This document shows, piece after piece, positions 10,143 through 14,586 of a stretch of DNA of 64,000 nt. The DNA comes from Hoylesella loescheii. GTDB taxonomy: Bacteria > Bacteroidota > Bacteroidia > Bacteroidales > Bacteroidaceae. How positions within the stretch are numbered: the stretch's first letter is position 1; every line of letters begins with the position of its first letter. The translations under genes and the position numbers were made by a program. The notes below the pieces were generated by a model. The model made no database searches. It was not told the origin of the DNA and saw nothing but the letters and a program-made list of their open reading frames with translations. Where the stretch lies: positions 1 to 64,000 of the forward strand of contig JADYUK010000013.1 in assembly GCA_021531755.1 (NCBI GenBank), read 5' to 3'.

Positions 10143-11627
10143 CTATTGTCGGGATACTTTCTTCTTCAGTTTCAAGGCAGGAATCTTTACTTTCTGTCCC
10201 GCAGAGATGGTCTTTCCATTCAAGGCCTCAACATAACATTCCATGCCAGGGCCGAGATATCTCTTCGAGATGGAGGCTACTGTCTCGCCCTCTGCCGCGG
10301 TCACAGTCTGCTGCACTCCGGTTATGATATATGCACCTGTTCTCACACGTGGATCCTTGTTATAGTTTTCGTTTACCATAGGTTTATCGGCAGCCATTTT
10401 CTCAACCGGCTTCTTTTCTGTGTCTGCCACTTTTATGGTCTTCTTATCGGTCTTCCCCACGGCAGCAGGAGCTACCTTCTTGTTATCAGCGGTAGGCACA
10501 TCCTTCTTACCTGCTGTAGAGTCTTTCTTCTCTGGTGATGGAGCAGGCAATCTCTTATATATGACATGTACCTTCACTTCAGGTTTCAGGCCGAGATATG
10601 CCTTAACGTCCTGCATTGTGATGTCGGCTGTTGCCCTACCGACAATGACACCCACAACGAAAACAGCCAGCCCCAACAACAGGCTTATCAGGAATGAGTG
10701 GTCGTTGTCTTCAGCAACACTTGGATTGAGATTCTTCTCGTCGCTCATAGCAGTAGTATTTTCTTCTGTTTGGTTATTATATTCTTCTGGTTCAGAAAGA
10801 GATACAATAGTTGGTTCTTTATTTTCTTCACCAGATATACTATCCTCGGCCGTATCTATAGCCATGACATTGAGTTTCCCTGCAGACTGTTCTGGCATAT
10901 CATTCCCAATCTCATCCTGCTCAGAATTATCGACTCTGTTTTCATCATCTTGCACCATCTGCATTACTGCCTTCCGCTCATGTTGGTCGGCCTTAGGTAT
11001 AGCAGTCCCAGCCTCATGTGCAGCGACATTGGAGGCATTGTCCACAGGAGTGGCCACTGTTTCCACAATGTCTTCTTGTACTGCTCTTTTCAAGGAGTCA
11101 GCGGGCTGAAGCTCACTGGACAATGTTTCCACAATATCTTCTTGCCCGGTGTTTATCCCTGTATCAGTATTTACCCCAGTATCAGTGTTTGCCGTTACAG
11201 TTGTCTCAGCAGAATGCTCCAGTATATCATAACCATCTGATTTTAGATTACGACCCTTAGGTTCTGTTGAGTCTGCCACCTTGGACATATCATCCATATC
11301 GTCGAATACGACACCTTCGTTCAATGGTACTGTGACGAAATGTGCGAAAGGCTTGTTGACTGAATCTCTCATCGTCGCATCAGGAGTGAATGATATTCTG
11401 TCATGAGAGTTTATCATTACTTTCTCTCCAGTATTCACATTCACACTCGCGCGCTCCTTAACCGTCTGCACCTTGAATGTTCCGAGGCCCTTAATCTTCA
11501 CCTGCTCGTCATTAATTAGCGCAGAGCGTATGAGGCTGAACATATCGTCCATGAACTTCTCAGCATCCTGCTGGTGCATGTCATATCTGTCAGCTACAAT
11601 TTTCGCAAGGTCTTTTATATTGCTCAT
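10143..11627 (-). CDS. HU-domain, single-TM, LysM protein
   Basis: A 494-residue protein with three parts. Residues 1-95 are an HU/IHF-type DNA-binding domain (IKGLGTFKVQ core). Residues 100-310 are an acidic, low-complexity linker with a repeated QEDIVET. Residues 312-332 are one hydrophobic transmembrane segment. After a Lys/Pro-rich linker, residues 432-485 resemble a LysM peptidoglycan-binding domain. The DNA-intercalating proline of the HU arm is missing: VNVNTGE replaces the usual NP-containing turn. Its ATG overlaps the end of the preceding HU gene by 4 bases. It may link nucleoid and envelope, but the flanking charges (acidic before, basic after the TM) would by the positive-inside rule favour the opposite topology, so orientation is unsettled. 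Confidence 0.82.
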   Translation of the reverse strand: MSNIKDLAKIVADRYDMHQQDAEKFMDDMFSLIRSALINDEQVKIKGLGTFKVQTVKERASVNVNTGEKVMINSHDRISFTPDATMRDSVNKPFAHFVTVPLNEGVVFDDMDDMSKVADSTEPKGRNLKSDGYDILEHSAETTVTANTDTGVNTDTGINTGQEDIVETLSSELQPADSLKRAVQEDIVETVATPVDNASNVAAHEAGTAIPKADQHERKAVMQMVQDDENRVDNSEQDEIGNDMPEQSAGKLNVMAIDTAEDSISGEENKEPTIVSLSEPEEYNNQTEENTTAMSDEKNLNPSVAEDNDHSFLISLLLGLAVFVVGVIVGRATADITMQDVKAYLGLKPEVKVHVIYKRLPAPSPEKKDSTAGKKDVPTADNKKVAPAAVGKTDKKTIKVADTEKKPVEKMAADKPMVNENYNKDPRVRTGAYIITGVQQTVTAAEGETVASISKRYLGPGMECYVEALNGKTISAGQKVKIPALKLKKKVSRQ

Positions 11628-11911
11628 TCCTGGCCTCCTTTCCGTATAGTATCCTTGACTGCAGCAGAGGCCTTAAAGTTCAATACAATCTTCGGTGGCA
11701 CAAGCATACGCTGTCCTGACGATGGGTTGACAATAATACGCTCAAGTCGTTTTTTCGGCTCAAAGGTTCCGAAACCGCTTATAGTTACATTGTCTCCTCC
11801 ATCGAACGTGTCGGACATGGCAGAAATGACGGCATTCACAAGTTTCTGTGTCTGTTCCTTGCTATTTCCCGTCTTCTTTGCTAATGCTGTTATGTATTCC
11901 TTGTTGTTCAC
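11624..11911 (-). CDS. HU family DNA-binding protein
   Basis: A 95-residue histone-like protein of normal HU length. The core GFGTFEPKKRLERIIVNPSSGQ contains the arm with its intercalating proline, and the N-terminal helices (KEYITALAKKTGNSKEQTQKL) fit the dimerisation half. It should bind and bend DNA as a dimer. The stop codon region overlaps the start of the HU-TM-LysM gene by 4 bases, which suggests translational coupling and possibly heterodimer formation between the two HU domains. Confidence 0.93.
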   Translation of the reverse strand: MNNKEYITALAKKTGNSKEQTQKLVNAVISAMSDTFDGGDNVTISGFGTFEPKKRLERIIVNPSSGQRMLVPPKIVLNFKASAAVKDTIRKGGQE

Positions 11912-12102: not shown

Positions 12103-13407
12103 TTAATCCAAGACGACTCCATATAGATCAAACTCCTCGGAAGATGTTATTCTGACATCATAGAAACATCCTCTGCGCAGCCTGCGTCCTCCAACGGGAA
12201 TAAGCACCTCTGGGTCGACTTCGGGAGAACTGAACTCAGAACGTCCAATATACCAGTCTCCCTCACGCCTGTCAATAATGACACGCATCACAGAGTCCAC
12301 TTTTTCCGCCTCTATCTCGGCAGAAATGTTCTGCTGGACTCTCATCAGCTTGTCAAGCCTCTTCTGCTTTACCTCTGGTGGAATATTGTCTTCATAGTGT
12401 TGTGCGCTGTATGTGCCTTCTTCTTCTGAATAGGCGAAAGCTCCCATACGCTCGAACCTTGCCCACTTCACGAAATCGACAAGTTCATTGAAGTCATCGT
12501 CTGTCTCGCCTGGGAATCCAACCATAAGCGTGGTTCTGATGTGTATGCCAGGTATCGCCTTCCTTATGCGTTGTATGACATCAACGGTTTCCTCTCTTGT
12601 CGTGTTTCGATGCATGAGTTGTAACATATTATCCGTGATATGCTGCAGAGCTATATCGATGTAACGGCAGACAGTCTTGTGTTTCCTCATGACATCGAGC
12701 AGCTCCATCGGGAAATGATTTGGGTAAGCATAATGCAGCCTTATCCACTTCACACCCCTCACACTGGCAATAGCGTCGACAAGCTGCGCAATACGGCGCT
12801 CACCATATATGTCGATGCCATAATAAGTCAGCTCTTGTGCTATGACATTAAACTCCTTCACTCCTGAGCTGACAAGCATCTTCACTTCTTCTACGATATC
12901 CTCAATGGTACGGCTCTTGTGTCGTCCTGTTATCAATGGTATGGCGCAGTAGGCACATTTTCGGTCGCATCCCTCTGATATCTTGATATATGCATAATGC
13001 TTGGGAGTTGTCGTGAGCTTTGTGTCTGTATGGGCAGTCACCGTTGATATGTCAGGAAGTGACGCTGCAAACTCTTTGAAATTGAACTTGCCATAGTATT
13101 TGTCCACCTCCGGAATCTCTGACTCAAGCTCGGCAAGGTAACGCTCTGACAGGCATCCCATAACGATGAGTTTGCCTATCCTCCCCTCGCTCTTCATCTG
13201 CGACAGCTCAAGGATAGCATTGATGCTCTCCTCTTTTGCATCACCAATAAAGCCGCAAGTGTTCACAACGACGTATTCGCCCTCCGGGCTCTCCGCGTCA
13301 TGAACTGTAGTATATCCTTTCTTTCCTAAGAGTCTCATAAGAGCCTCGCTGTCAACGAGGTTCTTAGAGCATCCCATAGTAATTATATCAATTCGATTTT
13401 TCTTCAT
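12103..13407 (-). CDS. rimO: Ribosomal protein S12 methylthiotransferase RimO
   Basis: RimO is a radical-SAM enzyme that adds a methylthio group to the conserved aspartate of ribosomal protein S12. I start it at the ATG giving MKKNRIDIITMGCSKNL (434 residues); an in-frame upstream ATG would add 19 residues that do not resemble the family. The N-terminal MTTase cysteines are C13, C51 and C85, the radical-SAM cluster is C147-x3-C151-x2-C154, and the C-terminal 65 residues fit a TRAM domain. It lies downstream of ftsY on the same strand, an order common in Bacteroidales, with a 231-base gap. Confidence 0.96.
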   Translation of the reverse strand: MKKNRIDIITMGCSKNLVDSEALMRLLGKKGYTTVHDAESPEGEYVVVNTCGFIGDAKEESINAILELSQMKSEGRIGKLIVMGCLSERYLAELESEIPEVDKYYGKFNFKEFAASLPDISTVTAHTDTKLTTTPKHYAYIKISEGCDRKCAYCAIPLITGRHKSRTIEDIVEEVKMLVSSGVKEFNVIAQELTYYGIDIYGERRIAQLVDAIASVRGVKWIRLHYAYPNHFPMELLDVMRKHKTVCRYIDIALQHITDNMLQLMHRNTTREETVDVIQRIRKAIPGIHIRTTLMVGFPGETDDDFNELVDFVKWARFERMGAFAYSEEEGTYSAQHYEDNIPPEVKQKRLDKLMRVQQNISAEIEAEKVDSVMRVIIDRREGDWYIGRSEFSSPEVDPEVLIPVGGRRLRRGCFYDVRITSSEEFDLYGVVLD

Positions 13408-13638
13408 GGTCAAAAAACAATTCCTCAGCCAATGCATTCTTGATATCACTGTAAACATAAACAAGTGATATCTTAGCAGAAAGCCACATCGAACTCAAGC
13501 ACACAGACAATCTTGACGCCCTGCTCCCGCATCTTTTGGATAATGATGGTCAGGCAAACTGGGCATCATTGTTGTGCTGGATAATGGGAGAAGGCGAATT
13601 GAAAATCGCTATATCCACCACTCATCTGGCTGTCACTA

Positions 13639-14586
13639 TTATTTTCCGAACAGGGAGTCAACGAAGGAGCGTCGGTTGAATAACTGGAGATCCTCCATAT
13701 TCTCTCCGAGTCCGATATATTTGACAGGAACTTTCAGCTGGTCAGATATTCCTATAACTACTCCACCCTTTGCTGTGCCGTCGAGTTTTGTTATGGCGAG
13801 CGATGTGATTTGTGTGACAGCAGAGAACTGTTTGGCCTGCTCGAAGGCGTTCTGCCCTGTTGACCCGTCAAGCACGAGCATCACCTCATCAGGAGCGTCA
13901 GCCTTAACCTTCTTCATCACGTCCTTAATCTTCTTCAGCTCGTTCATCAGTCCGACCTTATTATGCAGACGTCCGGCAGTGTCTATGATGACGACATCAG
14001 CATTGTTGGCCTTTGCTGACGATATGGTATCAAAGGCGACCGATGCAGGGTCTGAGCCCATTTGCTGCTTGATGACAGGCACACCGACTCTCTCTCCCCA
14101 TATCACAATCTGCTCGACAGCGGCAGCCCTGAATGTATCGGCAGCCCCGAGATAGACTTTCTTCCCGGCATGCTTGAACTGGTAAGCGAGTTTGCCTATT
14201 GTTGTGGTCTTGCCGACACCATTCACGCCGACAACGAGGATGACATACGGTTTGTCGCCCTGGGGGAGATCCCACTCGTCAAGGTCGCCAGTATTATTCT
14301 CCTCAAGCAGCGCCGCTATCTCTTCTCTCAATATGTTGTTCAGCTCTGATGTAGAGATATATTTGTCACGTGCCACACGTTTCTGTATGCGGTCAATGAT
14401 TTTCAGCGTTGTATCGACACCGACATCGCTTGTTATGAGGACTTCTTCCAGATCGTCGAGGACATCATCATCAACGGTGCTCTTACCTGCTATGGCACGG
14501 CTTATCTTGCCAAACACGCTCTCCTTTGTCCTTTCCAGACCTTTGTCGAGAGTCTCCTTTTTCTTGAAAATGCTGAATATGCCCAT
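13639..14586 (-). CDS. ftsY: Signal recognition particle receptor FtsY
   Basis: FtsY docks SRP-ribosome complexes at the inner membrane for co-translational insertion. The 315-residue protein lacks the long acidic A domain of E. coli, as is usual in Bacteroidetes, and starts straight into a lysine-rich N helix. The SRP-GTPase motifs are clear: GVNGVGKTTTIGKLA, DTFRAAAVEQ, DTAGR and TKLDGTAKGG, with a C-terminal YIGLGENMEDLQLF end. It belongs to the rpmB-rpmG-DUF4295-ftsY-rimO run, although a strong hairpin sits in the 222 bases before it. Confidence 0.97.
   Translation of the reverse strand: MGIFSIFKKKETLDKGLERTKESVFGKISRAIAGKSTVDDDVLDDLEEVLITSDVGVDTTLKIIDRIQKRVARDKYISTSELNNILREEIAALLEENNTGDLDEWDLPQGDKPYVILVVGVNGVGKTTTIGKLAYQFKHAGKKVYLGAADTFRAAAVEQIVIWGERVGVPVIKQQMGSDPASVAFDTISSAKANNADVVIIDTAGRLHNKVGLMNELKKIKDVMKKVKADAPDEVMLVLDGSTGQNAFEQAKQFSAVTQITSLAITKLDGTAKGGVVIGISDQLKVPVKYIGLGENMEDLQLFNRRSFVDSLFGK

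Follow-up and report, generated by a model that had tools for sequence, protein, structure and literature searches.

The window analysed here, a stretch of 64,000 nucleotides from Hoylesella loescheii, contains two minus-strand open reading frames that encode HU-family proteins. The upstream gene codes for a small HU protein (solo HU), the downstream gene for a longer protein in which an HU domain is joined to an acidic linker, a transmembrane (TM) segment and a probable LysM domain (fused HU). A preliminary description of this DNA had pointed out the tandem HU genes and their 4-base overlap, and both frames were confirmed. The genes and their upstream neighbours are as follows:

11624..11911, minus strand: solo HU-family gene (95 aa, GTG start; PF00216, E=1.7e-23)
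11624..11627, minus strand: overlap of the solo stop and the fused start (4 bases)
10143..11627, minus strand: fused gene (494 aa; HU, acidic linker, TM, linker, probable LysM)
12103..13464, minus strand: rimO-like gene, upstream neighbour (Radical_SAM, UPF0004 and TRAM_2)
13639..14586, minus strand: ftsY-like gene, upstream neighbour (SRP54 GTPase domain)

The neighbouring genes were surveyed in 80 named loci, 76 of which belong to the set of unique pairs described below. Of the 74 loci with at least 800 bp of upstream sequence, 71 had rimO on that side of the solo gene, and ftsY was found in all 57 loci with at least 3.5 kb. The asparaginase gene downstream of the pair in the window was not conserved in that place (0/72 loci). 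In other words, the genes for the SRP receptor (ftsY) and a ribosome-modifying enzyme (rimO), at 12103-14586 in the window, share one cluster with the envelope HU.

The solo gene does not encode the housekeeping HU of the cell. A separate canonical HU (L001) is present in the same genome and is only 30% identical to solo HU over 71 residues, so that the earlier view of the partner of fused HU as an ordinary HU has to be given up. Of the 176 genomes of the genus counted as near-complete (completeness 90% or more, contamination 5% or less), 175 had matches to the housekeeping HU at E<=1e-18, with 74-84% identity to the query among the matches listed.

Domain structure of the fused protein

Along the chain of the fused protein the following parts were distinguished:

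11340..11627, minus strand: HU domain, residues 1-96 (PF00216 over residues 3-91, E=3.8e-22)
11436..11438, minus strand: Val64 codon, found where HU has its intercalating proline (position 63 in standard HU numbering)
10698..11339, minus strand: acidic linker, predicted to be disordered, residues 97-310 (pLDDT about 40 over most of 119-305)
10626..10697, minus strand: single predicted transmembrane helix, residues 311-334 (pLDDT 84 and 90 in the blocks of 311-330)
10353..10625, minus strand: second linker, residues 335-425, mostly disordered by prediction (pLDDT <50 for most of 352-413)
10167..10352, minus strand: probable LysM domain, residues 426-487 (from profiles of relatives and predicted fold)

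At the HU end the profile search suggested in the preliminary description gave a clear answer for both proteins (E=1.7e-23 and 3.8e-22), and PF00216 matched every fused protein scanned, that is 28/28 from the genus, 27/27 from outside it and 9/9 from another class. An AlphaFold2 model of the whole fused window protein, built with 31 relatives, showed HU secondary structure (fold at 4-96) with pLDDT 81-96 in the 10-residue blocks of residues 1-100, and a folded C-terminal domain whose last residue is 487. The TM segment of the window protein reached a 19-residue hydropathy of 2.86 at its best; by the threshold KD19>1.6 there was one such segment in 222 of the 227 unique fused proteins and none in 5.

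The LysM end was less simple. When the window protein alone was scanned with Pfam and NCBIfam, no significant LysM match was obtained; the nearest was a 16-residue match to YneA (NCBIfam, E=0.11). Because its own profile match was not significant, evidence from the family and from structure was needed for this assignment, and here the relatives were more informative. Pfam LysM (PF01476) was found at E<=1 in 13/28 members of the genus (best 1e-6) and in 3/27 fused proteins from outside it, and at E<=0.01 in none of the nine fused proteins of the other class. The NCBIfam model PRK11198 ('peptidoglycan-binding protein LysM') matched at E<=0.01 in 23/27 fused proteins from outside the genus and 9/9 of the other class, the scores looked at falling below the curated cut-off of the model, a value chosen for whole proteins. 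A profile built from 29 C-terminal domains matched the LysM crystal structure 4uz2 (E=0.0016). Residues 418-494 of the window protein were modelled by AlphaFold2 as a beta-alpha-alpha-beta fold with a mean pLDDT of 83, and a Foldseek comparison of this model with the PDB gave mostly LysM domains, the top matches among them (best E 0.022, none <0.001); Kbp was present among the LysM matches. The C-terminal domain is therefore probably LysM, as judged from relatives and predicted fold, and the proposed combination of HU, TM and LysM can be retained on this footing.

A related C-terminal domain was seen in a different setting. An O-antigen-ligase-like (Wzy_C) protein of 887 aa (L037:1652-4312, minus strand) possesses two C-terminal copies resembling the C-terminal domain of the window protein (E 4.7e-8 and 1.2e-7). 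For the C-terminal end of this protein Pfam gives just Phage_tail_X (E=7e-4).

Membrane topology

The charges around the TM segment had been held to speak against a topology with HU in the cytoplasm and LysM in the periplasm. For the window protein itself the observation is correct, as the five residues that precede the TM segment contain neither K nor R and those that follow it a single R. In the family, however, the flanks favour HU inside. In 155 of the 227 fused proteins the 5-residue flank next to HU has more K+R than the flank next to LysM; in 49 the two are equal, and in 23 exceptions, the window protein among them, the HU flank has fewer (mean 1.74 for the HU flank and 0.82 for the LysM flank). 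The objection is thus a feature of the window sequence. With 10-residue flanks the means were 2.29 on the HU side vs 1.37, with more K+R on that side in 134 proteins, an equal number in 61 and fewer in 32; the net charge of these longer flanks did not differ (0.11 on each side). By inspection, no N-terminal signal sequence precedes the HU domain. Since flanking K/R, the absent signal peptide and the need of an HU domain to meet DNA all point the same way, HU inside and LysM outside appears to be the better reading, and the second linker (residues 335-425) would then be periplasmic.

Distribution and conservation of the gene pair

The preliminary description had named the phylogenetic spread of the pair as a point to be checked, and the pair proved to be nearly universal in the genus and present well beyond it. 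At E<=1e-20 the fused protein was found in 341 of 398 genomes of the genus of the window, and in 172 of the 176 near-complete ones, so the arrangement is not due to chance. Relatives on named contigs (the best 80 of 584 confirmed) include Prevotella, Xylanibacter, Segatella and Hoylesella. Across the order, 43 of 295 genomes had a match at E<=1e-24. These represent 14 families, and all 30 loci fetched from 12 of them (all but f3 and f46) have the pair. When 296 genomes were drawn from the whole phylum, one family belonging to another class (f135) was positive, with 30 genomes at E<=1e-24; a small HU gene lies directly upstream of the fused gene in all nine loci read from it (L319, L320, L322-L328).

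In total, 270 loci were chosen by their match to the fused protein, and a pair was counted where a solo HU gene lay at a distance of -140 to +200 bp. By this rule a solo HU gene lies directly upstream of the fused gene in 267/270 loci, duplicates included. Once pairs whose fused proteins are identical over their last 200 residues had been collapsed, 227 unique pairs were left, in which the two genes overlap in 171 cases (gap <0) and are spaced by 0-25 bp in 56.

The three exceptions are of different kinds. In L111 (5674-7377, plus strand) solo HU and the HU-TM-LysM protein lie in one frame of 567 aa with two HU domains, which is either a natural fusion or an assembly error; in the MAFFT alignment of this protein the solo and fused rows were both aligned with the same half. 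In L227 (G654:C48) the solo HU gene is located further upstream, and a few hundred repeat-rich bases replace the usual overlap. L279 is cut by a contig end and is hence without a readable pair.

Divergence of the two HU arms

The two HU domains of a pair differ in the DNA-contacting arm. In the order, solo HU has a proline at the intercalating position in 227/227 unique pairs, whereas fused HU has it in 0/227 (V in 218, I in 8 and E in 1). The solo HU of the window conforms to this, with an arm that is basic and keeps its proline (residue 63). That the arm of fused HU is without the intercalating proline was already contained in the preliminary description and now holds throughout the 227 pairs. 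To this it can be added that the fused arm is no longer basic either: the mean net arm charge over the 227 pairs is +5.2 for solo and -1.8 for fused HU.

The family of the other class (f135) behaves differently. Both partners have kept the arm proline there (9/9 each), and the arm charges range from -1 to +3 in the fused and from 0 to +7 in the solo proteins. The loss of the proline in the anchored subunit is therefore a trait of the order and not of the architecture as such.

Covariation between solo and fused HU

For each of the 227 pairs the HU domains of the two partners were placed side by side, and the set was subjected to a mean-field direct-coupling analysis (DCA; effective number 154 at 80% identity). 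Residue numbers of solo HU equal standard HU numbers, as solo HU aligns without gaps to the profile, starting at residue 1, and to canonical HU, and those of fused HU are one higher; standard numbers are used here for both. The strongest coupling between the proteins was that of solo 27 with fused 14 (z 8.9), and the reciprocal pair, solo 14 with fused 27, reached z 4.9. Among 4095 position pairs, 14-27 was the sole one with z >4 both ways. Inside one chain, the same pair gave z 1.5 (solo) and -1.5 (fused).

Several controls bear on the part played by common descent. When partners were shuffled completely or within 18 clusters, solo 27 - fused 14 dropped below zero; shuffling within 59 tighter clusters reduced it from 9.2 to 2.1 and the reciprocal pair from 5.0 to 0.7. 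In this last shuffle 44-29, which is the second strongest coupling and runs one way, retained 6.1 of 8.6, and 36-89 stood at 6.5 of 6.2. The number of pairs between the proteins with z >4 was 26, vs a mean of 17.75 after shuffling among close relatives. Much of the covariation signal is therefore phylogenetic. For 14-27 itself, the observed mutual information was reached in 0/300 permutations inside clusters, in either direction and at all four cut-offs. It was the best two-way pair of this stratified test at the two strictest cut-offs, while 33-88 equals or exceeds it at the two loosest; when its two directions are taken separately they come at ranks 4-22 and 12-38 of several thousand pairs, other one-way pairs scoring higher. 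In the genus alone (199 pairs) 14-27 was the first two-way pair. Six half-samples gave z 4.8-6.8 for solo 27 - fused 14 and 1.3-4.2 for the reciprocal, the two-way ranks being 138, 2, 6, 2, 1 and 20, and in the 28 pairs from other families neither direction stood out (1.5 and 1.8).

According to PMC5093408, Phe14 of one monomer of Spiroplasma HU is near Phe29 of the other where the two monomers meet in a hydrophobic interface, and Phe29 has its counterpart in Ala27 of Bacillus stearothermophilus HU. Thr15 of the Spiroplasma protein is there equated with residue 15 of Thermotoga maritima HU, so position 14 keeps its number, and the covarying pair 14-27 is a described contact across the HU dimer. 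Five further contacts taken from the same text (29-29, 33-46, 75-90, 1-41 and 13-34) showed no clear DCA coupling. Because covariation in both directions falls on a described dimer contact, solo and fused HU are likely to form a dedicated heterodimer, and the sequences thus lend support to the heterodimer suggested in the preliminary description.

A putative link between nucleoid and cell wall

Starting from the observed architecture, its conservation, the adjacency of the genes and the divergence of their arms, we regard it as fairly probable that the pair is a nucleoid-to-peptidoglycan tether: a dedicated heterodimer of a soluble and a membrane-anchored HU, with a single DNA-competent arm. 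Solo HU would supply the basic, proline-tipped arm which grips and bends DNA. Fused HU would dimerise with it, adding an acidic arm without proline, and would be tied by its disordered linker of about 200 residues to one helix in the inner membrane. From there the second linker would span the periplasm to the LysM domain, which would hold peptidoglycan. In this way the pair may fasten the nucleoid to the wall across the inner membrane, the long flexible linkers giving slack. The lack of a significant LysM match in the window protein itself, its own TM flanks and the equal net charge of the 10-residue flanks in the family speak against this reading.

Other explanations of the pair have to be considered. 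The anchored HU might keep solo HU at the membrane and so act as a store or a brake, with a heterodimer that holds no DNA there. As the fused arm is acidic (-1.8) and proline-less, the heterodimer may indeed bind DNA poorly. Sequestration would, however, leave the conserved LysM domain beyond the membrane without a role; it would also have to accommodate a solo arm that is basic with proline in 227/227 pairs, and another class in which both arms keep the proline in 9/9 loci read. We consider it unlikely.

The HU domains of eukaryotic CCDC81 have a scaffold-like role without DNA, and by analogy the HU pair might be a dimerisation module that joins envelope or division proteins. The features for DNA contact are gone from the fused arm, and weak matches to HU-CCDC81_bac_2 occur in 25/28 members of the genus at E<=1 (best 1.8e-6). 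Against these stand the match of canonical PF00216 to all proteins scanned (28/28, 27/27 and 9/9) and the proline and basic arm retained by the solo partner, which make a protein scaffold improbable as well.

Alternatively there may be no heterodimer at all, each HU forming homodimers and the fused homodimer tethering DNA or nothing. Homodimers are usual and make up most HU proteins, as stated in PMC5093408, adjacency of genes does not prove a complex, and the covariation is partly phylogenetic. Nevertheless the 14-27 coupling runs between solo and fused HU and not within either chain and survives permutation stratified by clade, and one locus (L111) fuses both proteins in frame. Two separate homodimers are accordingly quite unlikely. 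It is very improbable that the LysM domain is cytoplasmic and binds a small ligand, as in potassium-binding Kbp, or that the topology is inverted with HU outside: the flank charges of the window protein, the equal net flank charge in the family and Kbp among the LysM matches would fit, but of 227 proteins 155 have more K+R in the flank next to HU and 23 have less, and no N-terminal signal sequence was seen, by inspection, before HU.

Relation to known systems

Heterodimers are known among HU-fold proteins, examples being HU alpha-beta of Escherichia coli and IHF alpha-beta. The nucleoid-to-peptidoglycan tether proposed here would share with them the HU fold and two different subunits in one dimer. 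It would differ in that one subunit is anchored to the membrane, and probably the wall, and in the order lacks the arm proline and the basic arm.

Bacteroidetes are reported to possess another class of HU proteins related to the envelope. Burroughs et al. 2017 (Cell Cycle) are said to have described HU-CCDC81 - SPOR proteins (PF18174/PF18175/PF05036), under a title that proposes a link to chromosome partitioning; related architectures may be mentioned there as well, and it would be the most likely place for an earlier mention of HU-LysM. By inspection these proteins resemble the fused protein in having an N-terminal HU fold, a C-terminal peptidoglycan-binding domain and a hydrophobic segment between, but their HU part is a tandem of two CCDC81-type domains, and SPOR takes the place of LysM. 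The window protein scored 22.2 bits against PF18175, below the cut-off of 35, and therefore does not count as a CCDC81-type HU. It gave no SPOR match at E<=1, while a SPOR search of the genome matched three other places. The same genome also encodes a second, differently built HU-to-envelope protein (L157, 1489-2619, minus strand; G000:C55, about 108872), a 377-aa protein of HU-CCDC81_bac_1, HU-CCDC81_bac_2 and SPOR with a hydrophobic segment between (by inspection).

A comparison with HubP/FimV is also instructive. According to PMC8789113 and PMC12918733, these proteins have a periplasmic LysM, a single TM segment and a highly acidic cytoplasmic region, and hold the chromosome at the envelope via ParA1. 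LysM, single TM, acidic stretch and a link to the chromosome are thus common to both (PMC8789113), here as predictions from sequence. In HubP/FimV, however, LysM and TM precede the cytoplasmic part, i.e. the order is reversed, a C-terminal TPR/FimV domain is present and there is no HU, as far as these texts describe them. The window protein had no TPR or FimV match at E<=1, and its LysM is C-terminal. The HU-TM-LysM protein resembles HubP in its logic and has some parts in common with HU-CCDC81 - SPOR proteins, but belongs to neither group.

A search of the open-access literature by title and start of abstract found no paper on an HU-LysM protein; in one paper among the results, HU and LysM entries belong to separate genes. 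The combination of an HU fold, a TM segment and a peptidoglycan-binding domain is of a known kind, and here it comes with a probably dedicated soluble HU partner.

To our knowledge, little has been established about how Bacteroidales, which are dominant gut bacteria, position their chromosomes and hold them at the envelope. We tentatively extend the proposal to the order: an obligate asymmetric HU heterodimer, with a soluble DNA-bending subunit and a trans-envelope tether subunit, may possibly form the standing physical link between nucleoid and peptidoglycan in much of Bacteroidales, alongside which an HU-SPOR protein would give the cell a second one. The pair offers an HU dimer that has seemingly been turned lopsided, DNA being left to one arm and anchoring to one subunit. 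Almost universal within the genus, and predicted to connect a nucleoid-packaging protein physically with the wall, the two-gene unit makes the question of how these bacteria hold their chromosomes directly testable in genetically tractable relatives.
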